Shown in pieces: positions 35,682 through 51,172 of a stretch of 64,000 nucleotides of DNA; position 1 is the first letter of the stretch, and each line of letters opens with the position of its first letter. This DNA is from Luteitalea pratensis. Lineage in GTDB: Bacteria > Acidobacteriota > Vicinamibacteria > Vicinamibacterales > Vicinamibacteraceae. Below the pieces are notes generated by a model that saw only the letters and a list, made by a program, of their open reading frames with translations, had not been told where the DNA came from and searched no databases. The translations under genes were made by a program, and so were the position numbers. The stretch is from NCBI RefSeq assembly GCF_001618865.1, contig NZ_CP015136.1, positions 2,143,001-2,207,000 of the forward strand. The letters run 5' to 3'.

Positions 35682-36409
35682 CGCGACGCACATGGTTGAC
35701 CCTCGTCCTGACGGCGGCCGGCGCGCCTGTCCTCGCTGGCGGACCTGGCCGGCTCGGAGAGCCAGCCCTACTCACAATCCCTGGGAACGTAGCCGCCGGA
35801 CTTGTCCGGCGGTCAGGAGGCGAGGAAGATCGCTGGGCCAAGGAGATCGCCGCTTTCGCCGCCGACGACGAGGCGCGGCCGTTCGCGCCGGGCGGCATCG
35901 TGTTCGTCGGCAGTTCCAGCATCCGCCTGTGGGATGTGGCGTCCGCGTTTCCGGGACGCCCGGTGCTCAATCGCGGCTTCGGCGGGACGCAGGTCCTCGA
36001 CTCCGTGCGGCACGTCGAGCGGTTGGTGATTCACCACAAGCCGGCGACGGTCGTCTTCTACGCCGGCGACAACGATCTGTCGGCCGGCCGCACGCCGCAG
36101 CAGGTCGCGGCCGACTTCGCGGCGTTCGCCGCCAAGGTCCACGCAGCCCTGCCAGCCACGCGCATCGCCTTCATCGGCATCAAGCCGAGCATCGCGCGGT
36201 GGGCCCTCATCGCCAAGGTGCGGGAAGCCAACCGCCTCGTGCGCGATTCCTGCGACCGCGACGATCGGCTCGGGTTCGTCGACGTCGACGCCGCCATGCT
36301 CGGCTGGGACGGCAAGCCGCGTCCCGAACTGTTCGTCAAGGACGGCCTGCACATGTCGCCGAAGGGCTACGAAATCTGGAACATGCTCGTGCGGCCCTTT
36401 ATCGAGTGA
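35678..36409 (+). CDS. Secreted SGNH/GDSL hydrolase interrupted by a REP-like element near its N-terminus
   Basis: A 243-aa esterase/lipase-fold protein. SGNH blocks: FVGSSSIRLW (nucleophile Ser), NRGFGGTQVLD (Gly), VVFYAGDNDLSAG (Asn) and KDGLHMSPKGYEIW (Asp-His). The N-terminus MTRRTWLTLVLTAAGAPVLAG is an export signal. Between it and the domain, residues about 38-46 (VAAGLVRRS) are encoded by a complete GTAG palindrome (35789-35813). The paralogue at 49103 has a different linker there. It starts by ATGA overlap with the DUF1080 gene. It probably removes acyl groups from glycans. Confidence 0.87.
   Translation: MTRRTWLTLVLTAAGAPVLAGGPGRLGEPALLTIPGNVAAGLVRRSGGEEDRWAKEIAAFAADDEARPFAPGGIVFVGSSSIRLWDVASAFPGRPVLNRGFGGTQVLDSVRHVERLVIHHKPATVVFYAGDNDLSAGRTPQQVAADFAAFAAKVHAALPATRIAFIGIKPSIARWALIAKVREANRLVRDSCDRDDRLGFVDVDAAMLGWDGKPRPELFVKDGLHMSPKGYEIWNMLVRPFIE
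35789..35813 (+). repeat. GTAG palindrome inside a coding sequence
   Basis: GTAG followed by the stem CCGCCGGAC-TT-GTCCGGCGG. It is read in frame (asn-VAAGLVRR) within the SGNH hydrolase gene. In this phase its TAG is split between codons, so it does not stop translation. Confidence 0.85.
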
Positions 36410-36802
36410 GCTCCAAGCATCAGGTCTCAGGTCTCAGGGCCCAGAGCTCAGGTCTCAGGTCTCAGGTCTCAGGATTACGGCTTATGGCTCAGGACCGTCG
36501 ACCTGAAGGTCGACGGCTACGTACGGTGATCCAGACCGTCGACTTCAAGGTCGAAGGCTACGTCACCCGTCACCCGGTACCGTAACCCGGTACCCGAAAG
36601 ACCGGTGCCCGGAACACGGCGCCCCGTCGCCCGCTTCGATTCCCGATTCCTACTCCTACTCCTACTCCGACTCCGACTCCGACTCCGACTCCGATTCCGA
36701 TTCCGACTCCGACTCCCGACTCCCGTTCGTCCTACCCGGGCCCGGTGCCCGGAACACGGTGCCCGCCGCCCGCTTCGATTCCCCATTCCCGACTCCCGAC
36801 CC
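36410..36802. repeat. 393-bp gene-free region: 7-nt and 6-nt arrays plus two GTAG palindromes
   Basis: 36418-36475 holds AGGTCTC words. 36495-36520 and 36536-36561 are two tandem minus-strand GTAG palindromes (GTCGACCTGAAGGTCGAC and GTCGACTTCAAGGTCGAA, each followed by GGCTAC). 36561-36600 holds ACCCGGT words. 36646-36724 is a 6-nt array (CTACTC changing to CGACTC and CGATTC). A last stretch of TTCCCGA words reaches the next start codon. Confidence 0.92.
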
Positions 36803-37870
36803 ATGCCCCCCAAGACCTACCGCGTTGCTGTGCTCGGCCTCGGCCACTGGTACTCCGCCTACGGGCTCGCGCGCGCGTTGCCCGAGTATCCCCGCGCCCA
36901 TCTCGTGGTGGCGGCCGAGCCCGACCGCCGCCGGCTCGACGCCTACTGCGGCACCTTCGGCATCGAGGGCGTTACCGACTACGACGCGGTGATCGGACGT
37001 GACGACATCGACATCGTGCACATTGCCTCTCCGGTGTGCGACATCCCGGACCTGACGATGCGGGCGGCGCGGGCCGGCAAGCACGTGGTCATGGGTAAGC
37101 CGATGGCAATGACGGTTGCCGAGGCCGACGAGATGGTCGCTGTCGTCGAGGCATCCGGCGTGGTCTGCGTGCCGTTCCAGGGGCTGATGCGGTTGCGCCA
37201 TCAGTCGCTCAAGACACGGCTCGATGCCGGCGAGATCGGCGATCTCGCGGTGTTGCACCAGACGGGCCGGTGGGCCATCGCCGAGGACTGGTTCCAGTCG
37301 GGCACGCCCGGGTGGTTCGTCGACCCCGCCAAGGTGCCCGGGGGCGCATTCATCGACGAAGGGATCTACTGGATCGACTTGTTCCGGTGGCTGGCCGGCA
37401 GCGAGGTGATCGAAGTCGACGCGCGCATGCGCAACATCGTCCACCTCGACATCGCCGTCGAGGACTGGGGCTTGGCGACGTTCACGTTCGCCAACGGGAT
37501 CATCGCCACCCTGGAGGCGTCGTGGACGATCAACGCCCCGCGCAAGACGGGGCCGTCACCCAAGCACAACAGTGTCGTACGACTCGAGATGGTCGGGACG
37601 CGGGGCGAGTTGATGGAGCAGTGGTTCCGATCACCGGGCGGCGCCGTGCTCGCGGCCGGGGCCGAGGACTGGGTCTTCGAGCGGCGCGGCGAGGCGTTCG
37701 GCCCTCCGTCCCCCTTCCCACTGAACCACCTCGTGGACTGCATCGATAGCGGGCGGCCCCCCCTGGCCACGGTGCGCGATGCCCGCGACGCCTTCGTCGT
37801 GGCAATGACCGCTTACCAGTCCGCACGGGAGGGGCGGCCGATCCGCCTGTCCGGTGCACCACAGCCGTAG
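36803..37870 (+). CDS. Cytoplasmic Gfo/Idh/MocA-family oxidoreductase
   Basis: A 355-aa NAD(P)-dependent dehydrogenase. Rossmann start: YRVAVLGLGHWYSAYGLA, then IVHIASPVCDIPDLTM and the catalytic-lysine box HVVMGKPMAMTV (Lys in GKP, where EKP is usual). The C-terminal beta-sheet domain contains GGAFIDEGIYWIDLFRWLAG. There is no signal peptide, unlike its two paralogues here. The frame continues 66 codons upstream through the 6-nt array, giving a Leu/Arg run; ATG 36803 is chosen because homology begins there. No ribosome site is seen: the repeat abuts the start. The stop TAG is part of a GTAG hairpin. Confidence 0.88.
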   Translation: MPPKTYRVAVLGLGHWYSAYGLARALPEYPRAHLVVAAEPDRRRLDAYCGTFGIEGVTDYDAVIGRDDIDIVHIASPVCDIPDLTMRAARAGKHVVMGKPMAMTVAEADEMVAVVEASGVVCVPFQGLMRLRHQSLKTRLDAGEIGDLAVLHQTGRWAIAEDWFQSGTPGWFVDPAKVPGGAFIDEGIYWIDLFRWLAGSEVIEVDARMRNIVHLDIAVEDWGLATFTFANGIIATLEASWTINAPRKTGPSPKHNSVVRLEMVGTRGELMEQWFRSPGGAVLAAGAEDWVFERRGEAFGPPSPFPLNHLVDCIDSGRPPLATVRDARDAFVVAMTAYQSAREGRPIRLSGAPQP

Positions 37871-37890
37871 CGGCGTTTCCCCGCCGATGG
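37867..37890 (+). terminator. GTAG-headed hairpin at the end of the oxidoreductase gene
   Basis: GTAG followed by CGGCG-TTTCC-CCGCCG. TAG is the stop codon. It may act as a transcript end or mRNA stabiliser. No T-run follows. Confidence 0.5.
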
Positions 37891-38085
37891 GGCCGCCGCC
37901 CGTTCGGTGCGGTCCTGTCTTTCGTTACCAAGAACACAGCCACGTTTCAGTCCGCTCGCGGTCTAGCGGGCCGGCCTCGGGGACATCCGGTACCGCACGA
38001 CGCGGTCCGTTGCAGGGAGCACCATGACGGCGCGAATTCTTCCGCTTCGTCCGTCTCTGGCAGGTATGCCAGCAGGAGCCTCGTC

Positions 38086-38694
38086 GTGAGCGCCATGCCC
38101 GAGCCCCGATCCGGAGCCGGCGGCGTGGTGTCGATCACCCGTCAGTCCTTCCAGTCACTGTTCCAGCGGGCCAGGCACGGCGATGCCTCGGCGTTGCACG
38201 TGCTGTTCTCGCAGCACGTCGGGCCGCTACGGCGCTGGGCCCGCGGCCGACTCCCGCGCTGGGCCCGCACCGTCGCCGACACCGCCGACCTCGTGCAGGA
38301 AGCGCTCGTCCAGACGCTGCGACGACTCGGCGACTTCGAGCCACAGGGGCACAACGCGCTGCAGGCCTACCTGCGACGCGCCGTCGACAACCGCATCAAC
38401 GACGAATTCCGCCGCATCGCCCGTCGCGGCCTGGCGTCGGCGCTCGACGAAGGGCAGCCCGACGCACGTCCGTCGCCGCTCGAAGAGGCCGTGGCCCAGC
38501 AGACCGAGGATCGCTATCGGGCCGCGCTGGCGCGCCTGCGCCCCGGCGACCGCCGTCTCGTCGTCGCCCGCGTCGAGCTCGGTTACTCGCTCGAACAACT
38601 GGCGTTGATGACCAACCGGCCACGGGTCGACACGGCGCGCGTGGCGCTGCGCCGGGCCCTCGAACGCCTCGCGCTGGAGATGGCCATTGATTGA
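38086..38694 (+). CDS. ECF-family RNA polymerase sigma factor
   Basis: A 202-aa protein. Sigma region 2: SLFQRARHGDASALHVLFSQ and DTADLVQEALVQTLRRL. Region 4: YSLEQLALMTNRPRVDTARV and a final recognition helix rich in Arg. It starts at GTG 38086 with AGGAG 7 nt upstream. The next gene, a Ser/Thr kinase, begins inside its last codons. ECF factors paired with Ser/Thr kinases and lacking an anti-sigma gene form recognised ECF groups thought to be controlled by phosphorylation. No anti-sigma factor is visible here. Confidence 0.88.
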   Translation: MSAMPEPRSGAGGVVSITRQSFQSLFQRARHGDASALHVLFSQHVGPLRRWARGRLPRWARTVADTADLVQEALVQTLRRLGDFEPQGHNALQAYLRRAVDNRINDEFRRIARRGLASALDEGQPDARPSPLEEAVAQQTEDRYRAALARLRPGDRRLVVARVELGYSLEQLALMTNRPRVDTARVALRRALERLALEMAID

Positions 38695-40963
38695 CGCCGG
38701 GGTCCTGCCCTCGTCGGCACCGTCGCGGCGCGCCGGTGACGCCGCGCCGACACTGCGCCTCGTCGTGGATGCCCTCATCGACGGCCAGCCAGTCAAATGG
38801 GACGCCGTGCCACGGCGCGTCGGCACACCCTTCGAACAGCGGATGACGCAGCAGGTCCGCGCGATCGCACGACTGTCCGCCAATGCCAGCGCCTGCGGTG
38901 GCGAGGCGGTTGGCCGGATCGCCCGGCCGCACGTGCTGGAATGCGCGCTGTCGGCCCTCGCCCTCGTGCAGGTCACGGTCGGCCTTGCGGCTGGGGCGTG
39001 GCTCGACGCCGGTGCGGCTGCGCAACCCATGCGGTTCGCGTGGCTGATGATGACCAGCGCCGCGGCGCTCGGATTGATGCGCCAGGGGCGTCGCGTACCG
39101 GCTGCGCGCCTGCTCGGGCACGGGCTACTTCTCGTGGCTGCGTGGCAGGCACGACCTTTCCTGGACGCGGTCGTGGCCGCCGGCGCGCCGCTGTGGATAC
39201 GCGCGTGGTGGCAGGCGGTGTTCGTGGAGGCATTCCTCCCGGTCGCGGCGTGGCGGTTGGCTCGCGAGTGCCCGCCGGCTGTGCGCCTCGCGCCTTTCGA
39301 TCGAGCGTCGACGGCCTTGCTGGGCGCGGCGCTGGTGTGCAGCGTCGGCCTCGCGCTGGCGAGTGCGGTCTCGGCGCTCACCGTACCGCCGCCCAACGCG
39401 GTGTACGCCCGGATCATCCCGATGCTGGCGCTGGCCTGGGGCATCGTCAGCCTGGTCACCGTCGCGATACGGAGCCGGGCCGCCGCCGTTGCGCAATACC
39501 CCGCGAAGAGCGTGGCCATCACGCCGGGTCGATGGCGACCAGCGGTCGCCGAGCGCGTGGGGTCCCTGCTCGCCGCGTTCAGTGGCTCGCACGCCGCCGC
39601 GCTGGCCGCGCTCGGTGCCGACATGCAGCATGCCCGCTCGGTGCGTGAAGTCACGTCCGCGCTGATGGCGCACGTCAACGCGGCGCTGCGTCCGTCGGCG
39701 TTGGCGGTCGTCGCGCCGGCGACCGGCGACTGGACGGTACTCGCGGGTCGCGTCCCGCCCCTCGCCGCGGGATCCGCGATTGCCTGCATGCTCGTGTCGG
39801 CCGACGAGGCGACCCGCGTGGATGCAAGCGCCAGCGTGCATGCCCTGCTGCCAGCCGCCGATCGCGAGTGGCTGGCCGCGGCGCGGGTCGCGACGCTCGT
39901 TCGCCTCGCTTCCCGTGACGGCGACACACTGGCTGGCCTGCTGGTCGGCACGCACGGCGATGGCCGCCGGCACTCCCGCCGCGAACGGGCCTTCATCGCG
40001 GCCGCCGCCCGCACGGCCGCCATGGCACTCGGGTCGCTGGAACGCCCCCCCGTGGCCGAGTCGCGGCTCGATGCCGCCGACGACCTCTCGTTCGAATGCG
40101 AGGCGTGCGGACACGTGAGTGACGCGCCCGACACGTGCGAATGCGGGAGCGGCCGGCAACTGGCCGCGCTCCCGGCGTCGCTGCATGGCACGTTTCGCGT
40201 CGAGCGACGCATCGGCCGCGGCGGCATGGGTGTGGTCTACCTTGGTTCCGACCTGCGGCTGGACCGTCCGGTAGCCCTGAAGACGCTGCCATCGCTGTCA
40301 TCGGCATCGGCGGCATCGCTTCGCTGCGAAGCCCGCGCAATGGCCGCCGTGACTCACCCGTCGGTCGCCGTACTGTACGGACTCGACGAGTGGCGCGGCA
40401 CGCCGGTCCTGGTGACCGAGTACCTTGCTGGCGGCACGCTCGCGGCGCGCCTGTCGGCTGGGCCGCTGGCGCTCGTCGAGGCGCTGGCGCTCGGTGCGTC
40501 GGTGGCCGACGCGCTCGCGGTACTGCATGAACGCGGCTGGCTGCATCGCGACATCAAGCCGAGCAACATCGGCTTCTGCGGCGATGGCACACCGAAGATG
40601 CTCGACTTCGGCCTCACCAGGTGGCGACCGGCATCGACGGACACCTCGGAGTCGCTCGCGGGCACGCCGCTCTATCTATCGCCCGAACTCCTCGACGGCG
40701 AGCCGGCAAGCGAGCACGACGACGTCTGGGCTCTGGCGCTGGTCGTCGTCGAGATGATCACCGGCGCGCACCCATTCCAGGCCGACCATCTCGACGACAC
40801 GCTGCGGCACGTACGGTGTCGTGCGCCGATCCAGTGGACGCCGAAGATGCCTCCTGGCGCTGGCCAGGTCCTCTCCCGGGCGCTGCACCCCACTCCATCG
40901 CGTCGCCTGGCCACGGCGCGTGACTTCGCGGCGGCCCTGCGCGCCGTGCCCGTCGCGTCGTGA
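38687..40963 (+). CDS. Membrane GAF/zinc-ribbon Ser/Thr protein kinase with C-terminal kinase domain
   Basis: A 758-aa protein. The N-terminal 80 residues are soluble, followed by about six membrane helices (residues about 85-265). A GAF-like domain spans about 295-455, and a zinc ribbon follows with Cys471, Cys474, Cys484 and Cys486 (CEACGHVSDAPDTCECG). A Hanks kinase domain ends the protein: GRGGMGVVYLG P-loop, VALKTL with Lys532, HRDIKPSN with Asp622, DFGLTR with Asp640, and SPELLDGE. Most bacterial Hanks kinases have the kinase domain first, so this order is unusual. TTG 38687 overlaps the sigma stop by eight bases, so translation is coupled; a later start cannot be excluded. It is likely to phosphorylate the sigma factor. 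Confidence 0.88.
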   Translation: MIDAGVLPSSAPSRRAGDAAPTLRLVVDALIDGQPVKWDAVPRRVGTPFEQRMTQQVRAIARLSANASACGGEAVGRIARPHVLECALSALALVQVTVGLAAGAWLDAGAAAQPMRFAWLMMTSAAALGLMRQGRRVPAARLLGHGLLLVAAWQARPFLDAVVAAGAPLWIRAWWQAVFVEAFLPVAAWRLARECPPAVRLAPFDRASTALLGAALVCSVGLALASAVSALTVPPPNAVYARIIPMLALAWGIVSLVTVAIRSRAAAVAQYPAKSVAITPGRWRPAVAERVGSLLAAFSGSHAAALAALGADMQHARSVREVTSALMAHVNAALRPSALAVVAPATGDWTVLAGRVPPLAAGSAIACMLVSADEATRVDASASVHALLPAADREWLAAARVATLVRLASRDGDTLAGLLVGTHGDGRRHSRRERAFIAAAARTAAMALGSLERPPVAESRLDAADDLSFECEACGHVSDAPDTCECGSGRQLAALPASLHGTFRVERRIGRGGMGVVYLGSDLRLDRPVALKTLPSLSSASAASLRCEARAMAAVTHPSVAVLYGLDEWRGTPVLVTEYLAGGTLAARLSAGPLALVEALALGASVADALAVLHERGWLHRDIKPSNIGFCGDGTPKMLDFGLTRWRPASTDTSESLAGTPLYLSPELLDGEPASEHDDVWALALVVVEMITGAHPFQADHLDDTLRHVRCRAPIQWTPKMPPGAGQVLSRALHPTPSRRLATARDFAAALRAVPVAS

Positions 40964-40988
40964 CATCACCCCTCCTCGGCCGGGTGCC

Positions 40989-43900
40989 ATGAACGAAGGG
41001 AACCGGCCGCCGTGGGCACTGCTGGGCTCCTCGATGCCGCCGGCGGTCGTGGTGATACTGGCGGGCCTCGCGATGTTCACGGGGCCGGGTGGCACAGGCT
41101 CCGTCCCGGAATCGCGGCCACCGGCAGTCGTCGCCACACCTCCTCCCAGGCCGGGTGCCACACCAGCACCTGCGCCGCCCGCCACGATCACGAGCGCGTG
41201 GCTCGATGCGCAAGTGGCCGGCAGTCGCACCGCACAGGTCATCGACGACTACCTCGGAGATGTCGGGTGCCTCGCCGGAGCGGCTGGCCTCGCCACGGCG
41301 AAGGTGCGCGGTTCGGCCGCGGCGCTCGTCTCGGCGGGAGAGCAGGTCCCGTGCGATCTCGGCGCCATCATCGTCACTATCTCGGCCTACGAGGATTCCA
41401 ACAGCCGGTGGCAGGCCGACCGCACGCTGGCGACGATCCAGAGCGCCGTCACGGCTGCCAACTACACGCTCGAGCGCTTTCACCTGCCGCGTTCCGGGTC
41501 AGGCGACGACAAGGAGGACGGCGTAACCGATCCGGATGCACGGCACGGTCCGGGCGTGTTGCTGTTCCGGCGTGCCGCGGGTGCGGGAGCCGCCGGGCTG
41601 CGATGGCAACCACGGGAGGGAGCCGGCGCCGGCCGCAACGAAGTGCTCGCGGTCCTGATGGTGCCGGAGATGCCGATGTCGGGCATCGAACGCGTGCCGC
41701 TCCTGCTCGCGGGTCACCTGGCGCTGACGCTGCATGCGTTGCCCCATCCCGACGGTCCCTCGCATGCGGCGCAGGTGCGGCTTGTCGGGCCGTTCTACTC
41801 CGGCTCGTCGCTGTCATTGCTGCGCGGGCTCGAGGAGATGGCCTTCCTCGAGGGCGAGCAGGAAGCACGACGAGGCCTGCAGGTACGCGTGATCTCGGGC
41901 TCGGCGACGGGCTGGAGCAACTGTCACATCCTGTCGGGCCCGCTCGCGCACGACGGCCAGGTGACCTTCGAACGCACCGTCCACCAGGACGAAACGCTGC
42001 TGCTCGCATTGCAGGACCAGCTCGCGACGATTCGGCCGGAATGGGCGTCCGGACAAGGCGTGGCGTTGCTGGTCGAGTCCAACACCGGGTGGGGCGCCAG
42101 CCTTGGTCAGTCGACTGACCAGGACAGGGCGGCCAACGCTGACTTGATCAAGAGCACGCGAGCGCAGGGACGCAGCGACGGCTCACCGTGCGGCGAAGCG
42201 CCAGCGGCGAACCGTCCGCTCGTCTTCGCAGACGCGCTGCGGCTCGGCTTCCCGTTGCACATCGCCGATCGGTATGCGTCGCGGCAGCGCGGCGTTGCCG
42301 CCCCCGCGGAATTCAGCAAGCTGATGACCGCCACCGAGGTGTTACGGCTCGAAGACTCGGACACCGCGAGCGATCGCCTGCCGACCTTCACGCCGAACCT
42401 CACGGATGCGGCGCGTGACCTGACGCTCGACGGCATCCTCACGCAGCTCCAGCGTCGTCGCATCGGCGCGATCGGCATCCTGAGCACCGACGAGCGCGAC
42501 CGGCTGTTCCTCGCGCGCGAGATCAACCGGGTGTCTCCCGACGTCATCCTGTTCGGGACCGAGCCCGACATCCTGATGCTGCATCCCGAGTACGCGCCCT
42601 ACGTGCGCGGGATGCTGATGGCCTCGTCGTATCCGCTGCAGGGACATGCGCAGACGCTCACGCATGGCGAGGGGATGCACACGCGCCGGATGCAGTTCAC
42701 GTCGATGGCGCAGCAGGGCGTCTACAACGCGCTGCTGTTGTCGCTCGGGGACTCGTCGGCGACGGGACCGCTGCTGGTCGACTACCGCGCTCCGGACGGC
42801 AGCTGGCCGCGCGACAAGCCGGCGCAGTGCGGCGGTGACGACGGCCTCGAGCGCCCGGCTCCGTGGATCGTGGTCGTCGGGCAGCGCGAGTTCACCCCGT
42901 TCTCCGTGCATCCCGCGCTGCTGCGCGCGCAGGATTGCGAGGTCATGCGCGGCCGCGTCAAGACCAGCGAAGACACCGATCCGGACCGGTATCTGTTTGC
43001 CACCGGCCAGGAACGGGCGATGTGGCTGCTGCTGCCGTTGACGGCGATCGGGCTGCTCGGGTTGCTCGTGGCCGCGCGCCGCACCGTGCTGCCGTCGGCG
43101 CGATGGTTGTCGCCGCCCCAGCTGCTGTGGCGCCTCGAGAGGCCGCATCCGGCAGACGGCGCGCGTACCGCGACGCAGTGGCCGCGACGCGGCGAGACGG
43201 CCGCACACGCGGCCGAGCATGCCATCCTCGCCGGAGCCCTGGGACTGGCGCTCGCCCTGTTCGCGGTCTGGCAGCTTCACGTGTGGCGCGACGTGCTGTG
43301 GCCGGGCGTCCCCGACCGGGAACGCGCGTTCGTCGCGATGTTGCGTGAGGCACCGGTCGCGTCGTCGCTCGCGCTCGGGGCGTCGGCGCTGTTCGGTCTG
43401 GCGCTCGCGCTCGGGGCCATCGCGATCGTGGCGATCGGCGCGTGGCGACTCTGGATCGTCGCGCGTGGCCGCGCCGCGCTGCGCGGGCGCTGGAGCGTCG
43501 TGGTGCAGCGGGCCGTCGCGTCGAGTGCACCCGAAGTGATTACCGCGCTCGTGCTGCTGGCCGGCGCCGGGTTCGTCATCGTGTGCCTCGCCTACCTGTG
43601 GCGGCGGCCTCCCGGCAGCAACACGGATCAGCTCTTTGCCTCGAGCCGCGCCTTCGACCTGACCAACCTGTTGTCGCCGGCGCCGCTGCTGGCGATCTTC
43701 CCGGCCATGGTCGTCGCGTGGATGGTGTGGAGCCTCCGCACGCTGTACTACCAGCGGATCAGTCCCACGTGTGCCCTGCCCCTGGTGCACGCGCTCGTCA
43801 GCCGAGACGTGCGCGATCGTCGCCTGGAACACGCGCTGGTCGCGACGCTTGGCACGACGATGCAGCCGGCCGGCGTGTTCCTGCTCTTACCAGTGGTCGT

Positions 43901-44744
43901 CGTCATCCTGATCTGGTTGCTCCTCGAACCGCGCATCGCCTCGGTGGAAGGCGCAGCGTTCGGCAGGGTGCTGCTCCTCGGCACCACCCTTGGCGCCCTC
44001 GGCGCGTCGCTCGAACTGGGGCAGGCGGCCTGGCTGGCGCGCCGGGTGACGCGGCTGCTCGAGCGGGTCCGCATTCATCCGATCGCCGGCGACGTGGAGG
44101 CGATGGAGCACGAACCGTTCGACTGGCGTCCGGCCCTCCGTCCGGCGCAATCGCCACACCGCTTGCTGCTTCGCGCGCTCCGTGCTGCCGGTGAGCAACC
44201 GCTGCCGGACGGGGCTGCGCTGGCGAACCAGGATCGCGTCGCCGTGCTGCGTACCGAAGCGTGGCGCGTCGCGCTCACGCGCGCGGGGCAATGGGTTCGC
44301 CACGGCGCGGCCTCGGGAAGCGCCCTCTCGGCGGAGCAACGCAAGGTGGTGGCGCTGGTGATCAGCCTGCTCCTGCAATCGCTCGTCACGCGGGTCGTGC
44401 GCGGCTTCGGGATCGCGGCGCTGCTCGCCACGATGCAACTCGCTGGTCACCTGCTGACGGCGTTCTCCGGGCGCAGCCTGGCGCTGATGTTCGACATCGG
44501 CCTGATCGTGGTCTCGGCGGCGCTGGCGATCCGGGCCCTGCTGACGCTCGAGCGGGATCACGTCCTCAGCAAGTTGTGGCACGGCACGCCTGGCAGCCTG
44601 AACTGGAACAGCGGCCTCGTGTGGCGGGCCGTCGTCTACGCGGGCCTGCCGTTGCTGACCATCATCTCCATGCGTTTCCCGGAGGTGGGCGGGCAGTTGA
44701 TGACGGTCGTGGAGCCGTTGCGGCACATCATGCCGTCGCCCTGA
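40989..44744 (+). CDS. 1251-aa membrane protein with large periplasmic receptor-like domain
   Basis: No family is firmly recognised. One membrane helix near residues 16-33 is followed by a Pro-rich linker and a domain of about 620 residues that should be periplasmic. Parts recall the type I periplasmic-binding/ANF receptor fold: QVRLVGPFYSGSSLSLLRGL (about 260-280), RIGAIGILSTDERDRLFLA (about 490-510) and PDVILFGTEPDILML. From residue 678 about nine more membrane helices follow (AMWLLLPLTAIGLLGLLVAA first). Two Cys pairs in the periplasmic part could form disulfides. It starts 25 bases after the kinase gene and belongs to the same operon. It is plausibly the sensor of the ECF-kinase unit (inference). 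Confidence 0.82.
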   Translation: MNEGNRPPWALLGSSMPPAVVVILAGLAMFTGPGGTGSVPESRPPAVVATPPPRPGATPAPAPPATITSAWLDAQVAGSRTAQVIDDYLGDVGCLAGAAGLATAKVRGSAAALVSAGEQVPCDLGAIIVTISAYEDSNSRWQADRTLATIQSAVTAANYTLERFHLPRSGSGDDKEDGVTDPDARHGPGVLLFRRAAGAGAAGLRWQPREGAGAGRNEVLAVLMVPEMPMSGIERVPLLLAGHLALTLHALPHPDGPSHAAQVRLVGPFYSGSSLSLLRGLEEMAFLEGEQEARRGLQVRVISGSATGWSNCHILSGPLAHDGQVTFERTVHQDETLLLALQDQLATIRPEWASGQGVALLVESNTGWGASLGQSTDQDRAANADLIKSTRAQGRSDGSPCGEAPAANRPLVFADALRLGFPLHIADRYASRQRGVAAPAEFSKLMTATEVLRLEDSDTASDRLPTFTPNLTDAARDLTLDGILTQLQRRRIGAIGILSTDERDRLFLAREINRVSPDVILFGTEPDILMLHPEYAPYVRGMLMASSYPLQGHAQTLTHGEGMHTRRMQFTSMAQQGVYNALLLSLGDSSATGPLLVDYRAPDGSWPRDKPAQCGGDDGLERPAPWIVVVGQREFTPFSVHPALLRAQDCEVMRGRVKTSEDTDPDRYLFATGQERAMWLLLPLTAIGLLGLLVAARRTVLPSARWLSPPQLLWRLERPHPADGARTATQWPRRGETAAHAAEHAILAGALGLALALFAVWQLHVWRDVLWPGVPDRERAFVAMLREAPVASSLALGASALFGLALALGAIAIVAIGAWRLWIVARGRAALRGRWSVVVQRAVASSAPEVITALVLLAGAGFVIVCLAYLWRRPPGSNTDQLFASSRAFDLTNLLSPAPLLAIFPAMVVAWMVWSLRTLYYQRISPTCALPLVHALVSRDVRDRRLEHALVATLGTTMQPAGVFLLLPVVVVILIWLLLEPRIASVEGAAFGRVLLLGTTLGALGASLELGQAAWLARRVTRLLERVRIHPIAGDVEAMEHEPFDWRPALRPAQSPHRLLLRALRAAGEQPLPDGAALANQDRVAVLRTEAWRVALTRAGQWVRHGAASGSALSAEQRKVVALVISLLLQSLVTRVVRGFGIAALLATMQLAGHLLTAFSGRSLALMFDIGLIVVSAALAIRALLTLERDHVLSKLWHGTPGSLNWNSGLVWRAVVYAGLPLLTIISMRFPEVGGQLMTVVEPLRHIMPSP

Positions 44745-44770
44745 CCGTATCTGGCTCGTTGGCACCCGGC

Positions 44771-44895
44771 ACGTCTCAGGTCTCACTTCTCACGTCTCAC
44801 GCACCGCCTGAACCCTGAGCCGTGAGACCGTCGCATCCGGAAGCTGGAAGCCGGAAGCTGGAAGCTGGCACCCGGCACCCGGTACCCGGTACCCG
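44771..44895. repeat. 7-nt tandem arrays before the DinB gene
   Basis: TCTCAGG/TCTCACG words (44771-44800), then GAAGCTG/GAAGCCG and GCACCCG/GTACCCG words (44838-44895) in strict 7-nt phase. The array ends two bases before the TATAGT box. Confidence 0.9.
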
Positions 44896-44896
44896 T

Positions 44897-44902
44897 TATA
44901 GT
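44897..44902 (+). promoter_or_regulatory. -10 box (TATAGT) for the DinB-family gene, leaderless type
   Basis: TATAGT ends 8 nt before ATG 44911. The preceding array occupies the -35 position. Confidence 0.5.
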
Positions 44903-44910
44903 CTGCGCCC

Positions 44911-45390
44911 ATGGCCATCCGCGAACTCGTGCTCGATACGCACGTACACCTGGCGCCGATGAAGATGCTCGAGGATCTCCCGGGCGTCGACGCGGTGCGC
45001 CCGCCGACGCCGCTCATGCACAGCGTTGCGGGGCTGGTCGCGCACATGGACTTCTGGCAGCACTGGTTCCTGCAACGCTGCACCGGCGTCGCGGTGCCCA
45101 TGGCCACGCGCGCGGCGGATGGGTGGCCCAACGTGACAGCCGGGGGCTGGCCGGCAGTGCTGGCGCGCTTCGAGCGTGGGCTGCGCCAGGCCGCGGATCT
45201 GGGCGACGATGCCATGGCGCTCGACCAACCGCTGCATCCGGCCATCCAGTTCCCTGCGATGGCCGCCTACACGCGGCGCGACGCCCTCGTGCACATCGCT
45301 CAACACAACTCGCATCATCTCGGCCAGGTCGTCTCTGCGCGCCAGGTCCTCGGCTTGTGGCCGCCGAGGGCCGGCAGCTGGACGTGGTGA
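44911..45390 (+). CDS. DinB-family putative metalloenzyme
   Basis: A 159-aa four-helix-bundle protein. The three-His metal site of DinB-like proteins is visible: LVAHMDFWQHW and IAQHNSHHLGQV. DinB-fold proteins include thiol-dependent S-transferases; the exact reaction is not predictable here. It is a single-gene unit. An unexplained stretch of 199 bp follows, containing an 8-nt array at 45496-45530 (ATTCCAGC, four copies). Confidence 0.8.
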   Translation: MAIRELVLDTHVHLAPMKMLEDLPGVDAVRPPTPLMHSVAGLVAHMDFWQHWFLQRCTGVAVPMATRAADGWPNVTAGGWPAVLARFERGLRQAADLGDDAMALDQPLHPAIQFPAMAAYTRRDALVHIAQHNSHHLGQVVSARQVLGLWPPRAGSWTW

Positions 45391-45495
45391 TTCCGGGCTC
45401 GATGCCTCACGTCGTGTCAGGTCCGCCGGACAAGTGGTTCATGACGGGGCGCGCCACGGTCCACGACGAATCTGGCAGGCGCTCTCGACATTTCC

Positions 45496-45530
45496 GCATT
45501 CCAGCATTCCAGCATTCCAGCATTCCAGCG
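45496..45530. repeat. 8-nt tandem array (ATTCCAGC)
   Basis: Four perfect to near-perfect copies in the 199-bp gap before the exported Gfo/Idh gene. Confidence 0.9.
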
Positions 45531-45589
45531 TTGCGGCTTGCCTCCGCGTGTGTCACCCTCACGCCTTCCAGCGGCAGGGGAGGTCGGAC

Positions 45590-47014
45590 GTGGCCAACAG
45601 ACGGACGTTCCTCAGGACGATGATGGCCGGCGCGGTGGGGGCGGGTGCGGGATCGCCGTCGCCGGGGTTCGGAGCGGCCGGCACACGAGTGGCGCCGAGC
45701 GATCGGGTTTGCGTCGGGATGATCGGCGCGGGTCTCATCGGCACGCGCCACCTCATCGACTTCACGGCACAACCTGACGTCGACGTCGTCGCCATCGCCG
45801 AGTTGTCACCAGCGCGTATGCAGGCGGCCCGGGCACGGACGGAAGGCCGCGCCGAGGCCGTCACCGATTTCAGGCGGATGCTGGACCGCAAGGACATCGA
45901 CGCAATCGTGGTGTCCACGCCCGATCACTGGCATGCCTTGATGACGGTGATGGCGTGCGCCGCCGGCAAGGACGTCTACGTCGAGAAGCCGCTCACCCAT
46001 GTCGTGCGTGAGGGAGACTGGATGGTCTCGGCCGCCACGCGCCATCAACGCATCGTCCAGGTGGGCACCCAGCAACGATCCGGCCGGCACTACCAGCGTG
46101 CCAAGGCCCTCCTCCGTGAAGGTCACCTCGGCGACATCCGACACGTCCACGTCCGATCGACCCGCAACATCGTGCCCGGCTTCACACGGCCTGTGGACGA
46201 TCCGCAGTTGACGCCCGAAGCCTGGGACATGTGGCTCGGGCCGGCGCCATCGGTCCCGTTCGATCCGAGGCGAGCGCTCTACCACTTTCGCTGGTACTGG
46301 GACTACTCGGGCGGGCAGACGACGAACCTGCTGGCGCACGATCTCGACATCGTGCAATGGATGACCGACGCCATGCCGAGGCGCGTCTCGGCGTTCGGGC
46401 AGCGTCGATCGCTGCAAGGCTTCGGCGAGACTCCGGATGCGTTCGAGGCCACCTACGAGTTCCCCGGCTTCCTCCTCACGTGGTCCAACTCCGAGGTGTC
46501 GGCCGGACGCTGGCGAGGGCTCGAGATCGGTGGCACCAAGGGGACGCTCACGATTTCGCGAGCCGGATTCGAGATCATCCCTGACGCCACCATCCCGGCC
46601 GAGGATCAGATCCCGCGCGTCGAGTTCGCCGGACGGCCTGCCGCCGCCGCGACGCCTCGCACCGAGGCGATCAAGGACGATGGTTACGAGCAAGTGCGCG
46701 ATCAGTTCGTGCCACACGTGCGCGACTTCCTCGAGGCGATCAAGTCCAGGCGTCCTCCGGTGTCCGACCTGGCGAGCGCGCAACGCACCGCCACGGCCTG
46801 TCACCTGGCCAACGTCGCCATGCGCGTCGGGCGGGTGGTCCGCTGGGACGTCGCGGCCAATGACGTCGTCGGCGATCCGGCGGCGTCAGCGCTACTCACC
46901 AAGGCGTACCGTGCGCCGTGGGACCGCGAACTGTTGGCGATTGTTCCAGGCGCGACGCTCGCCCCAGCAGCGCCACGTTCGTCGGCGTCCGTCGGAGGAG
47001 AGGGACGCTTATGA
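45590..47014 (+). CDS. Tat-exported Gfo/Idh/MocA-family oxidoreductase
   Basis: A 474-aa protein. The twin-arginine leader is NRRTFLRTMMAGAVGAGAG. The Rossmann domain has VCVGMIGAGLIGTRHL, DAIVVSTPDHWHALM and the catalytic-lysine box DVYVEKPLTHVV. The long C-terminal domain holds VQVGTQQRSGRHY, GPAPSVPFDPRRALYHFRW and LAHDLDIVQWM. Exported members oxidise sugars in the periplasm with a tightly bound nicotinamide cofactor. GTG 45590 has GGGGAGG 7 nt upstream. It is the first gene of a run with an isomerase, an SDR and an SGNH hydrolase. Confidence 0.9.
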   Translation: MANRRTFLRTMMAGAVGAGAGSPSPGFGAAGTRVAPSDRVCVGMIGAGLIGTRHLIDFTAQPDVDVVAIAELSPARMQAARARTEGRAEAVTDFRRMLDRKDIDAIVVSTPDHWHALMTVMACAAGKDVYVEKPLTHVVREGDWMVSAATRHQRIVQVGTQQRSGRHYQRAKALLREGHLGDIRHVHVRSTRNIVPGFTRPVDDPQLTPEAWDMWLGPAPSVPFDPRRALYHFRWYWDYSGGQTTNLLAHDLDIVQWMTDAMPRRVSAFGQRRSLQGFGETPDAFEATYEFPGFLLTWSNSEVSAGRWRGLEIGGTKGTLTISRAGFEIIPDATIPAEDQIPRVEFAGRPAAAATPRTEAIKDDGYEQVRDQFVPHVRDFLEAIKSRRPPVSDLASAQRTATACHLANVAMRVGRVVRWDVAANDVVGDPAASALLTKAYRAPWDRELLAIVPGATLAPAAPRSSASVGGEGRL

Positions 47015-47167
47015 CGAACGCTGAACGCCGAACGCCGAACGCTGAACGAACGCCGAACGCTGAACGCCGAAGGCCGCACGCCGAATGCCCGAGCCTTGGC
47101 GCAGGCGGAACGCCGACTTGTCCGCCGCAGCCTTGGCGCAGGCGGAACGCCGACATGTCCGCCGCAG
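47013..47167. repeat. 7-nt array and 37-bp tandem repeat at a gene junction
   Basis: GAACGCC/GAACGCT words run from about 47014 to 47090. Then a 37-bp unit (CCTTGGCGCAGGCGGAACGC and 17 more bases) is present twice, at 47094-47130 and 47131-47167, with one difference. The repeats lie between an ATGA overlap at 47011-47014 and the likely true start of the next gene, and the frame is open through them. Confidence 0.88.
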
Positions 47168-47190
47168 TCGTGGCGGAGGTGGACCGCGAG

Positions 47191-48276
47191 ATGCCTGGCG
47201 TCGATCGCCGCGGCTTCGTCGCCGCCCTGCTGGCGAGTCCATGGCTGGCGGCACGGGCGGGCAGCGCGGCTCGACCCGCCACGTCGATGTACCTGGCGTA
47301 CACGTCATTCGCCGTGCGCATGTCGCAGGGCCGCGACATCCTCAAGAGCAACGCGGCGGCGCTGGGCCCCGATGCGTTCCGGGAACTCTGCCTCCGGTTC
47401 GGCGCGCGCGGCGGACAGATCGATCTCTCGCAGGTGCCGGTCGGCGACCCGGCCGCGCTGGCCGCGATCCGTGCCGCGTACGAGAAGGACGCGATCGCGC
47501 TCGAAGTCTCAATCCCGTCGCGGTACCTCGAAACGCCGGAGACCTACGCACAGGCCGTGACCGCGGCGCGGGCCCTCGGCGCCACCCGGGGACGTGTCGC
47601 GCTGCTGTCGGGTCGACGCTACGAGACCTTCGAGACGGCGTCGGCCTGGGCGGCGTTCACGACGAAATGGCGGGAGACGCTGCTGCGCCTGCGGCCCGAA
47701 TTCGAGCGCCAGCAGTTTGCCATCGGCATCGAGAACCACAAGGACTGGCTGGCGCCGGAGTTGGCGGCACTGCTCCGTGCGGTCGACAGCCGCTTTGTCG
47801 GTGCCTGCGTCGATTTCGGCAACAACCTCGCGCTCCTCGAGCATCCCGACGAGACCATCGAGGTGCTCGCACCCCTGGCCGTCACGACGCACCTGAAGGA
47901 CATGGCCGTGAAGCCCACCGCCGACGGGTTCGAATTGTCGGAGGTGCCGCTGGGGCAGGGGATACTGCCGCTCGATCGGTACGTGCGCGCGATCCGCAGT
48001 GCACGGCCGGACGCGGCCCTGTGCCTCGAGATGATCACGCGCGACCCACTGCGCGTGCCATTTCGCAACGAGCGCTATTGGGTGGCGTTCGACGCGACGG
48101 CGCGCGACGCTGCGCGGCTGCAGCGGTTCGAGCAGCAGATCCTGTCGCGCGCGCCTGCCCGCCCGCTGCGGCGCATCACCGGCCTCGCGCCCGCGGCGCA
48201 GGTCGAACTCGAAGACGAGCACGTGCGCGCCTGTGTCGCCTACGCGCGCGACGTGCTGAAACTGGAGACCGCCTGA
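47191..48276 (+). CDS. Tat-exported xylose-isomerase-like TIM-barrel protein
   Basis: A 361-aa protein. The twin-arginine leader is [18 protein letters not shown]. The TIM-barrel shows [71 protein letters not shown] and CLEMITRDP, the acidic/His/Asn residues expected for a metal site. The frame is open from ATG 47011, which overlaps the previous stop, but the first 60 residues would be translated repeats. ATG 47191 gives a normal Tat leader with GGAGG 11 nt upstream; ATG 47155 is another option. It probably acts on the product of the upstream oxidoreductase. Confidence 0.82.
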
Positions 48277-48278
48277 GC

Positions 48279-49064
48279 ATGTCCGACGGACGCCCGCACG
48301 CGCTGGACCTGTTTCGACTGAATGGCCGCACCGCCCTGATTACCGGCGGCGCTCGCGGACTCGGACTCGTGATGGCCGAAGCCCTTGCCGAGGCGGGAGC
48401 CTCGGTGTGCTTGACGAGCCGCACGCCGGGCGCGGCGCAGGACGCGGCGGCCTCGCTCGCGAGCACGACCGGCGGACGCGTCGTGGGCGTGACGAGCGAA
48501 CTCACGACGTCGGCAGCTGTCGAGCATCTCTCGCGGCAGGTGGCCGATGCGGTCGGTCATGTGGACATCCTGGTGAACAACGCCGGGATCAACATCCGCG
48601 GCAACATCGGCGAGATCTCCGAGGCCGACTGGGATGCGGTGATGGACGCCAATCTCAAGGCGCCGTTCCTGGTGGCCCGCGCCTTCGGTCCCGCGATGTG
48701 CGCACGCGGCTGGGGGCGGGTGATCACCCTCTCGTCGATGCTCGGGACGATCGCGTTGCCCGGCCGATCGCCGTATGCCTCCTCCAAGGCGGCGGTTCTC
48801 GGGCTCACCCGCGTCCTGGCGCTGGAGTGGGCCCCCCTGGGCGTGACCGTCAACGCGATTTGCCCAGGCCCCTTCGGCACCGAGATGAATCGCCAGCTGT
48901 TGAACGATCCGGAGAAATACCAGGCGTTCGTCCAGAAACTGCCGCTCGGCCGCTGGGGCGAGTTGCACGAGGTCAAGGGGATTGTCCTGTTCCTTGCCTC
49001 GGACGCTTCGTCGTTCATGACCGGCACGGCGCTCGCGCTCGACGGCGGCTGGACCGCCCAGTGA
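48279..49064 (+). CDS. SDR-family oxidoreductase (gluconate/2-keto-gluconate dehydrogenase-like)
   Basis: A 261-aa classical short-chain dehydrogenase. Cofactor motif [25 protein letters not shown] motif, catalytic Ser in ITLSSMLG and Tyr-x3-Lys in [12 protein letters not shown], and the substrate-side PGPFGTEMN. It resembles gluconate 5-dehydrogenase/2-deoxy-gluconate 3-dehydrogenase types, but specificity is uncertain. It is cytoplasmic. It starts two bases after the isomerase stop, so the same message carries both. Confidence 0.87.
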
Positions 49065-49090
49065 GCGGCCTGGTGCGCGCCAGGCGGGCG

Positions 49091-49096
49091 GATAAT
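49091..49096 (+). promoter_or_regulatory. -10 box (GATAAT) for the second SGNH gene, leaderless type
   Basis: GATAAT ends 6 nt before ATG 49103. It lies 26 bases after the SDR stop, suggesting an internal promoter in the run. Confidence 0.4.
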
Positions 49097-49102
49097 GCGT
49101 CC

Positions 49103-49855
49103 ATGTGGATTGGTCACGTGTGCCTCGCGGCCGCCTGTGTCGTCGCGGCTGCGATAGACAGCCCCACCAACGCCCAGGGTGTCGCCACCGCACCTCGGGT
49201 CGCCGTACCGGCGCCACTCGACCTGTCGCGTTACGAGAAGGACGTCGTCGCGTTCGAGGAGGCGGACCGGACTGCGCGGCCACCGGCCGGCGGCATCCTC
49301 TTCGTGGGGAGCAGCATCTTCCGGCAATGGACGAACCTGGCCGCACAGATGGCGCCCCTGCCGGTCTTCAACCGCGCCTTCGGTGGCTCCCGCACCGCCG
49401 AGCAGTTGCACTACATGGATCGCATCGTCCTGCCGTACAAGCCGCGGGTGATCGTCTACTACTGCGGCAGCAACGACGTGAACGCTAACGAGTCCGCCGC
49501 GGACATCGCCTCACGCTACGAAGCATTCTCCGAGCGCGTGCGCCAGGCGCTCCCGGACACGCGTCTGTACTTTGCGTCGATCATCAGGGCGCCGCAGAAG
49601 CGCGATCGGTGGAGTGTGGTTGACGACGCCAACGCGCGCGTCCGTGAGTACAGCGCGCGCACGCCAGGACGCGGCTACATCGACCTGCACCCAGCGCTCG
49701 AGGAGACGCCACGGCAGCCGAGAATGGACCTCTACCTGCCCGACCACCTGCATTACCTGCCGCCCGCATACGACCGCATCGTCGAGTTGATCAGGCCGGT
49801 CATCACTGCTGCGTGGGCTGAAGTGTCGACCGATGGCGCATCGCGCCGCCAGTAA
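49103..49855 (+). CDS. Secreted SGNH/GDSL hydrolase
   Basis: A 250-aa protein with a signal peptide (HVCLAAACVVAAAIDSPTNA). SGNH blocks: GGILFVGSSIFRQW (Ser), NRAFGGSRTAEQL (Gly), VIVYYCGSNDVNA (Asn) and LYLPDHLHYLPPAY (Asp-His). It is a paralogue of the gene at 35678 and lacks the REP-encoded insert. It is a likely carbohydrate or lipid esterase. It is the last gene of the oxidoreductase-isomerase-SDR run. Confidence 0.87.
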   Translation: MWIGHVCLAAACVVAAAIDSPTNAQGVATAPRVAVPAPLDLSRYEKDVVAFEEADRTARPPAGGILFVGSSIFRQWTNLAAQMAPLPVFNRAFGGSRTAEQLHYMDRIVLPYKPRVIVYYCGSNDVNANESAADIASRYEAFSERVRQALPDTRLYFASIIRAPQKRDRWSVVDDANARVREYSARTPGRGYIDLHPALEETPRQPRMDLYLPDHLHYLPPAYDRIVELIRPVITAAWAEVSTDGASRRQ

Positions 49856-49906
49856 GGTCCTCCGCGGCGTGATGCCGGTCGTTTGCGCGCCCGACCGTCT
49901 CGACCC

Positions 49907-51172
49907 ATGCGCATCGTCATAGCCACGTGGGGATCGCATGGTGACCTGAACCCCGCGCTCGGCCTTGCCGTGGGGCTGCGTGACCGCGGCCATGACGTCG
50001 TCGTGGCGACGAGCCCCTTGTACCGGCCCGATGTCGAACGAGCCGGGGTCGGCTTTCACGCCGTCAGGCCGGACATCGATCCTGGCGACTCGGCGTTCAT
50101 CGCGCGGGTGATGGATGCGCACCGGGGCACCGAGTTCCTGTTCAGGCAGGTGCTGATGCCGGCGCTGGGCGCCGCCGCTGCAGATCTCCGGCCTGCCGTC
50201 GCGCAGGCCGAGCTCGTCATCAGCCATCCAGCTACCTTCGCCGTGCCCGTGCTGGCCGAGGAACTCGGGACGATGTGGGCATCGATGGTCCTGGCGCCGA
50301 TGTCGTTTTTCTCCGTGCACGACGTGCCGGTACTCCCGCCAGCGCCGTGGCTGCGCCGCATCGCGGAGCGATCACCGCTGGTGAGCCGCACGCTCGTGGC
50401 GATGGCCCGGAAGGCGACGCGAAACTGGACAAGGCCCGTTGCCGCGCTCAGGGCTGCCAGTGGACTTCCGGCCGGCGGGGATCCGGTGTACGAGGGACAG
50501 CATTCTCCGCACCTCGTGCTGGCGCTGTTCTCGCGCGTGCTTGCCGACCCGCAGGCTGACTGGCCCGCACACGTCGTCGTGACCGGCGCCATCCCTTACA
50601 ACGGCGCAGGCGTGAGCGGGTGGCCGGACGCACTCGAGGCGTTCCTGGCGGCTGGACCGCCGCCGGTGGTCTTCACGCTGGGGACGTCCGCGGTCGGTGC
50701 GCCGGGCCGGTTCTACGAAGAGAGCATCGCAGCCGTCCGGGCCGTCGGCTGTCGTGCCGTGCTCCTGGTCGGGTACCAGGGTGCCAGCCGCCTTTCTGCG
50801 CCGCTCCCGGATGCCGTCATCGCTGTCGAGTACGCGCCGCATGCCGCGCTGTTCCCACGCGCTGCCGCCGTGGTGCACCAGGGCGGTGCGGGGACGCTGC
50901 ATCACGCGCTGGCGTCCGGGCGGCCGATGATCGTGGTGCCGTTTGCGCACGACCAGCCCGACAACGCCGATCGGGCCCGGCGCCTGGGTGTAGCTCGTGT
51001 GATCAGGCCGGGGCGGTACCGCGCGCGACGCGTTGCCCAGGCCCTGCGCGAGGTGTTGGAGGATCGGGAGATGGCCACCGCGGCGGCGCACGTCGCGGCA
51101 CGCGTCCGCGCCGAGGACGGCGTCGGTACGGCCTGCGACGCGATCGAACGCCTGCTTGCGCGACAAAGGTAG
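49907..51172 (+). CDS. MGT/sterol-type glycosyltransferase (GT1-like)
   Basis: A 421-aa GT-B enzyme. N-terminal acceptor domain: MRIVIATWGSHGDLNPALGL, then RDRGHDVVVATS. C-terminal donor domain: VVFTLGTSAVG and the nucleotide-sugar signature VVHQGGAGTLHHALASGRPM, PFAHDQPDNADR. It transfers a sugar from a nucleotide donor to a lipid or secondary metabolite. The acceptor is unknown. ATG 49907 is chosen since the family begins at MRIVIATWGSHGD; an upstream GTG at 49883 is possible. Its TAG stop forms a GTAG hairpin. Confidence 0.85.
   Translation: MRIVIATWGSHGDLNPALGLAVGLRDRGHDVVVATSPLYRPDVERAGVGFHAVRPDIDPGDSAFIARVMDAHRGTEFLFRQVLMPALGAAAADLRPAVAQAELVISHPATFAVPVLAEELGTMWASMVLAPMSFFSVHDVPVLPPAPWLRRIAERSPLVSRTLVAMARKATRNWTRPVAALRAASGLPAGGDPVYEGQHSPHLVLALFSRVLADPQADWPAHVVVTGAIPYNGAGVSGWPDALEAFLAAGPPPVVFTLGTSAVGAPGRFYEESIAAVRAVGCRAVLLVGYQGASRLSAPLPDAVIAVEYAPHAALFPRAAAVVHQGGAGTLHHALASGRPMIVVPFAHDQPDNADRARRLGVARVIRPGRYRARRVAQALREVLEDREMATAAAHVAARVRAEDGVGTACDAIERLLARQR

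Follow-up and report, generated by a model that had tools for sequence, protein, structure and literature searches.

An ECF sigma factor-kinase operon of Luteitalea pratensis and a large receptor-like membrane protein as its possible exchangeable cargo

The best explanation we can offer for the locus described here, and one that we hold with about as much belief as doubt, is an operon of an ECF sigma factor and a Hanks-type Ser/Thr kinase that carries exchangeable envelope-acting genes, in which the large membrane protein BIG would be receptor-like cargo under the control of the pair and not its obligate sensor. What follows the sigma-kinase pair differs within the genus: BIG, a muramidase-papain-type protein (MUR), the two together, or neither of them. 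The window, by which we mean the whole stretch of 64,000 bases that was analyzed, covers positions 2143001-2207000 of a single contig of 7,480,314 bases. Its features at this locus are as follows, in window coordinates.

37922..37942, + strand: short block 5' of the sigma gene, TCGTT-8-CACAGCCA, a candidate promoter element
38086..38694, + strand: ECF sigma gene, GTG start, 202 aa, region 2.2 motif DTADLVQE
38687..40963, + strand: Hanks-type Ser/Thr kinase gene, TTG start, 758 aa
38933..39472, + strand: membrane block of the kinase, residues about 83-262, by hydropathy
40196..40915, + strand: kinase domain, residues 504-743, with VALK at 529, HRDIKPSN at 620, and DFG at 640
40989..44744, + strand: BIG gene, ATG start, 1251-aa membrane protein whose family is matched by no model of Pfam or NCBIfam
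41013..41078, + strand: N-terminal membrane helix of BIG, residues 9-30, by hydropathy
41463..42890, + strand: type I periplasmic-binding-like part of BIG, residues about 159-634, the full extent of a low-threshold alignment
43014..44672, + strand: polytopic membrane domain of BIG, about nine helices, residues 676-1228

The frames for the sigma factor, kinase, and BIG translate with zero internal stops. The last 8 bases of the sigma gene are also the first 8 of the kinase gene, and 25 bases separate the kinase gene from BIG, so that the layout given in the original prediction, down to the 1251-aa product of the third gene, holds. The same 8-base overlap is found in all four orthologous pairs, with the kinase starts TTG, ATG, GTG, and ATG (the start in genome G001 was set at an in-frame GTG upstream of the first-called start), and because it recurs in four of four pairs it is unlikely to be due to chance. 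No sigma-70 promoter-like or terminator-like site was found within 37700-45300. The short block ahead of the sigma gene is similar upstream of sigma in the four orthologous loci on alignment, one of them with an extra base. A genome-wide pattern search returned a single site for it, its own, and two for a reversed control pattern; as the block is single in the genome, it provides no evidence of a regulon.

The sigma gene product has the sigma2 and sigma4 domains only, which is the make-up of an ECF sigma factor. In Pfam, Sigma70_r2 (40.3 bits) and Sigma70_ECF (24.2 bits) score above the cut-off and r4_2 below it (20.0 versus 25.7), and TIGR02937 of NCBIfam is passed at 65.6 bits. None of the six neighboring proteins scanned matched an anti-sigma model of Pfam, which is in line with the earlier statement that no anti-sigma gene is present; among these six, the locus lacks the adjoining anti-sigma gene by which anti-sigma-controlled ECF systems are recognized. 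An ECF sigma gene beside a Hanks-type kinase gene is reminiscent of the ECF43 pairs EcfP-PknT of Vibrio parahaemolyticus and EcfK-PknS of Xanthomonas citri, the second of which controls an envelope weapon, the type VI secretion system (T6SS), according to the sections of PMC13147305 and PMC8999054 that deal with these pairs. The same sections describe region 2.2 of ECF43 as STTA or QTTA instead of DxxD, and the sigma factors as being turned on because phosphorylation, at the Thr in the third position, provides the negative charge absent from that region. Unlike these, the window sigma factor keeps DxxDxxQE, as DTADLVQE, without a region 2.2 phospho-Thr, and this excludes membership of ECF43 by its defining feature. 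The other feature of that group, a kinase gene adjoining the sigma gene, is present in the window and at 17 of 22 further sigma loci that were examined.

The original prediction had the kinase phosphorylate the sigma factor. Judged by its motif, with DTAD in place of the QTTA or STTA described in those sections of PMC13147305 and PMC8999054, phosphorylation of the window sigma factor at the ECF43 site would be unlikely, and the motif leaves room for phosphorylation elsewhere in the protein. Compared by description, the sigma factor resembles the groups ECF59, ECF61, ECF62, ECF217, and ECF283, which keep a DAED-like motif and for which kinase control has been proposed with a mechanism not known (PMC8999054, in the part on these groups). 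That same part of PMC8999054 acknowledges kinase-paired sigma factors with the acidic motif in region 2.2 as a gap in present knowledge, and a pair joined by a conserved overlap, with natural variants with and without membrane helices, makes a good test case. The (D/E)TxD motif of region 2.2 is kept in all 23 sigma factors examined, including five without a directly downstream kinase gene. Its second position is Thr irrespective of a downstream kinase gene, and this residue, next to the position of the ECF43 phosphosite, is invariant (23/23; L093-L112, L007, L006, and the window).

The comparison with relatives is where the pair and BIG come apart. Among the four other genomes of the genus, G001, G002, and G004 have sigma orthologues with 81-88% identity, and G003 has no close orthologue, its best match being 51%. 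At an E value of 1e-20 or better, 42 sigma places were found in 25 of 60 relatives, and 23 of these places were examined, the window and L006 included. A kinase gene lies directly downstream at 18 of the 23 and is absent from that position at five, at one of which (L112) a divergent kinase gene adjoins sigma. The gene order is sigma-kinase-BIG in the window, sigma-kinase-BIG-MUR in G004, and sigma-kinase-MUR without BIG in G001, where 21 bases separate the kinase and MUR genes; G002 has the pair alone, with neither BIG nor MUR. BIG thus follows 2 of the 23 sigma loci examined and two of the four orthologous pairs. The three genes had been taken beforehand as a unit, with absence of the large gene next to the pair in most relatives named as the observation that would speak against it, and such absence is what the material examined contains. 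As close relatives keep the sigma factor and kinase without BIG, BIG looks like an add-on and not a fixed sensor. The same-genus search covered five genomes, so that the reading of BIG as cargo rests on four loci, and genes outside the window were called by a custom script and not by a standard gene finder. Upstream synteny is strong among the window, G001, and G002, and weaker for G004 over the 420 bases compared; the downstream side of the window locus is rearranged.

MUR of G004 (863 aa) combines a Muramidase domain with a papain-like stretch below the Pfam cut-off, and its G001 counterpart has an additional esterase match, also below cut-off. A search of the window for MUR, or for a remnant of it in 36001-50000, gave nothing convincing (best E value, 0.41). 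As a side observation, the part of MUR that follows the muramidase occurs without a muramidase domain at ten loci of the phylum (L138-L147), in proteins of about 630-780 aa, one of them cut by a contig end; no relative of BIG, the sigma factor, or the kinase was found in the flanks examined there.

The kinase matches PF00069 (Pkinase) at 135.3 bits and has the VAxK, HRD, and DFG motifs of a Hanks-type kinase at residues 529, 620, and 640. From N to C terminus, it is composed of a DGxPVxW segment, the membrane block, GAF-like and Cys-rich segments that were both recognized by eye only (the GAF-like segment has no Pfam match), and the kinase domain. The C-terminal position of the kinase domain distinguishes it from PknS, for which the relevant sections of PMC13147305 and PMC8999054 describe a kinase domain at the N terminus and a TPR part in the periplasm; no TPR was found in the window kinase with Pfam. 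The N-terminal segment is most commonly of the form DGxxVxW, with (V/I)xW in 17 of 18 kinases, and the motif is missing from the orthologous kinase of G002. Hydropathy places a membrane block in two of the four orthologues, those of the window and G001, and finds none in those of G002 and G004, the block-free kinases being of 532 and 575 aa. The kinase had been called a membrane kinase, which is true of the window and G001 and does not extend to the other two, and transmembrane signaling by the kinase is therefore not a general feature. The G004 kinase looks soluble from its sequence although BIG adjoins it; together with the patchy occurrence of the membrane block, this is why BIG is read here as cargo of the pair.

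BIG itself belongs to a rare family with no convincing Pfam match. By hydropathy, BIG has one helix near the N terminus (residues about 9-30) and nine more after a stretch that reaches to about residue 675, in agreement with the architecture first proposed, namely one N-terminal helix, a large periplasmic part, and about nine further helices. Pfam returned only two unrelated matches below cut-off and NCBIfam none, so that the impression of the third gene as new is borne out for these two collections. With PADLOC, there was no match for BIG, MUR, the patatin of L038, or the papain of L044; kinase-domain matches were returned for P0002, and one weak phospholipase-effector match for the patatin of L041. 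No description of BIG was recognized in the literature searched, which included portions of PMC8195603 and PMC7159879. The G004 orthologue is 72% identical to BIG of the window, and a dN of 0.197 with a dS of 0.83 indicates a maintained gene. A large maintained protein whose family has no model in Pfam, NCBIfam, or PADLOC is of interest in its own right, and the existence of natural relatives with and without BIG makes its role directly testable.

Counting the genome of the window in each case, BIG was found in 2 of 60 relatives by single-sequence search, in 22 of 396 genomes of the phylum with a profile of three sequences, and in 24 of 396, or 12 of 210 genera, with a profile of 21. Within the class, 7 of 193 genomes have it, with a match in G481 that is probably false. 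A scan of genome contigs confirmed only the same-genus record, and no plasmid homologue was found for three BIG proteins. In most full-length members, hydropathy shows the N-terminal helix and, after about 550-760 residues, a set of some eight to ten helices; in four members (L047, L049, L050, and L054), it did not detect the first helix. The alignment of 21 members leaves aside L042, where BIG is split into two frames, the fragments of G081, and L224-L227 and L239-L242 (L226 being a weak partial match with a BIG span set by hand); L048, which it includes, is interrupted by a stop. A second BIG in the same genome as the window (G000:C1:1844011-1846146; L005:8021-10156) is broken, with an interrupted frame and most of the periplasmic part missing, and is followed by a short trypsin-like piece that is a weak match (E value, 0.013).

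The periplasmic part of BIG probably descends from type I periplasmic-binding proteins, an assignment, made from sequence profiles, in which we have moderate confidence. When the 21 BIG members were compared with 27 PF13458 proteins from the same phylum, the score was 39.5 with a pairwise E value of 0.00036 and a probability of only 37% in local mode, and 90% in global mode. This score exceeds the maximum of 24.1 in block shuffles (199 of 200 scored) and of 15.3 in column shuffles (99 of 100 scored; one of each kind returned no score), as well as the 14.8 obtained with reversed profiles and the 13.1 of the BIG membrane part, and the similarity is thus above chance, as had been suspected from stretches like a type I periplasmic-binding fold. 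By default, the alignment spans 95 columns around the GPxxSGS and LxExxTxxG motifs. The confident core comprises about 95-138 columns, and residues about 159-634 are reached only at a lowered threshold, at which the BIG alignment is collinear through the whole PF13458 partner; otherwise a full-length alignment is seen in global mode only. Unlike PF13458 proteins, the BIG part is longer, is fused to an anchor on its N-terminal side and to about nine helices on the other, and has no Pfam match: among the 21 members, Pfam gave only unrelated weak matches and no periplasmic-binding model. No significant match to the PDB was obtained with the BIG profile (best E value, 1.9) or to a solved structure by sequence (best E value, 0.045, to a protein named sc-CC-6-95), and an AlphaFold model of the periplasmic part from two sequences only, the window and L037, had a mean pLDDT of 30.4 and was discarded.

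Outside the genus, 259 genes were called around 24 BIG loci, and custom profiles showed neither a sigma nor a kinase gene immediately next to BIG at any of them, nor any sigma or kinase match at four further loci of the class. The nearest profile matches were a sigma-like gene at L056 and a kinase gene at L054, 2.4 and 2.8 kb from BIG, and control regions in BIG-bearing genomes contained one kinase gene among 139 genes (17 of 20 regions, three contigs being too short). At L054 (433-4286; G383), the kinase gene is accompanied by an ECF-like gene that the profile missed and that was seen by eye, both on the opposite strand and 2.1-2.8 kb from BIG. A sigma-kinase pair of another type thus lies near BIG there, and it may represent a second, looser association of BIG.

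The neighbors of BIG hint at the envelope as a common theme. At 9 of 25 loci (L006 and the 24 outside the genus), a gene for a peptidase, phospholipase, phosphoesterase, or muramidase lies within two genes of BIG: the muramidase-papain type at L006, papain-like C1 peptidases at L044, L046, L057, and L225, a C39-like peptidase at L039, patatins at L038 and L041, and a phosphoesterase at L050. In the genus of the C1 loci, BIG comes immediately after the papain gene and, at L044 and L046, immediately before a SnoaL-like gene; genes for a sigma-54 activator and a glycosyl hydrolase 108 are also near it at L044. In the same synteny in G261, the papain and SnoaL-like genes are 146 bases apart and BIG is absent, and in G233 BIG is present and the papain gene absent. 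Across nine genomes of that genus, the papain gene occurs in four of five with BIG and in one of four without. BIG thus comes and goes next to papain-bearing genes in two distant groups.

These neighbors are the ground for an alternative that we regard as rather improbable, in which BIG, as membrane sensor or gatekeeper, would govern an envelope-lytic module made up of the adjoining peptidoglycan hydrolases, papain-like peptidases, and phospholipases, with the sigma-kinase pair as no more than a local regulator. The nine positive loci speak for it, as do the clean separation of G261 papain and G001 MUR from BIG and, weakly, the trypsin-like remnant beside the broken paralogue. Against it, no member of the hydrolase set was recognized at the other 16 loci, whose neighbors are only partly annotated (25 of 197 families listed), the set was picked after the data had been seen, and the nine positives fall into five families of genomes, the four C1 loci into one genus. 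Papain and MUR persist without BIG, and the sole control (none of 68 random genes) is one-sided because its queries were taken from the positive loci; S9- and tricorn-like peptidases seen by eye beside BIG at L042 and L051 were not counted. The link of BIG to envelope hydrolases is accordingly worded here as suggestive. A bolder idea, to which we likewise give little credence, would make BIG the founder of a new class of membrane receptors in bacteria. In it, a sensor of the type I periplasmic-binding kind would be connected by its own nine-helix domain to envelope lysis enzymes (muramidase, papain-like peptidase, phospholipase), and it would move between genomes as a cassette and come under different regulators, the sigma-kinase pair in one genus and the neighboring sigma-54 activator in another. 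There is some likeness to the two-gene membrane conflict "System 4", which, in the part of PMC7159879 that describes it, has membrane proteins, some with a periplasmic-binding domain, and peptidase effectors; unlike that system, no caspase domain was found among nine window proteins scanned.

The circuit originally envisaged, in which BIG binds a periplasmic ligand and signals to the membrane kinase, which then phosphorylates the sigma factor, is doubtful to a similar degree. The sigma-kinase-BIG order in two species, the periplasmic-binding-like part of BIG, the membrane block of the window kinase, and the six neighbors without an anti-sigma match would all fit it, but the pair stands without BIG in G001 and G002, BIG stands without an adjoining pair at 24 loci, the kinase next to BIG in G004 shows no membrane block, and DTAD places Ala where ECF43 has its phospho-Thr (PMC13147305 and PMC8999054, in the sections cited above). 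Of that proposal, the pair without an anti-sigma match, the large gene without a model, and the periplasmic-binding resemblance are supported, and the three-gene unit and BIG as the sensor of the kinase are not. Least probable of all, in our view, is that BIG is an uptake protein in which a substrate-binding domain is fused to its own permease. A periplasmic-binding-like part joined to a polytopic membrane domain is what such a protein would require, but the membrane domain of 21 members has no transporter match apart from one Clc-like match at 6e-5, the closest solved structure (sc-CC-6-95) is not a significant match, and Pfam finds no ATPase gene directly beside BIG in the window.

If BIG is cargo of the sigma-kinase operon, it can be envisaged that the kinase uses its N-terminal and middle segments to sense its own signal and that it controls the sigma factor without an adjacent anti-sigma gene, perhaps by holding it through the N-terminal DGxPVxW segment and letting go upon phosphorylation. 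The sigma factor would then transcribe the operon together with its cargo, and the pair would thus most likely control the production of BIG, which would serve an envelope process as a membrane receptor that binds a ligand. What runs counter to BIG as cargo is its position immediately after two of the four pairs, where it could feed into the kinase.

A link of BIG to contractile injection was considered and rejected, as tube genes occur in 11 of 24 genomes with BIG and in 8 of 20 others. In G265 and G346, two genomes of one genus, BIG does have contractile-tail sheath and tube genes next to it on the opposite strand (L053:3807-6557 and L055:12981-15731). The genome of the window has one T4-gp19-type tail tube gene (G000:C1:1956296-1956724), far from the sigma-kinase-BIG locus, which points to a contractile injection or tail structure in this genome. 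Elsewhere in this genome, a cluster at L148:4142-10887 (G000:C1, about 1151000-1158000) encodes an amidase-caspase protein, a 400-aa membrane protein, a 599-aa protein of unknown type, and a TIR protein. The amidase-caspase protein, of 963 aa, is partly related to the C-terminal part of MUR, and short membrane proteins like those of this cluster seem, by eye, to be present near BIG at L041 and L050.
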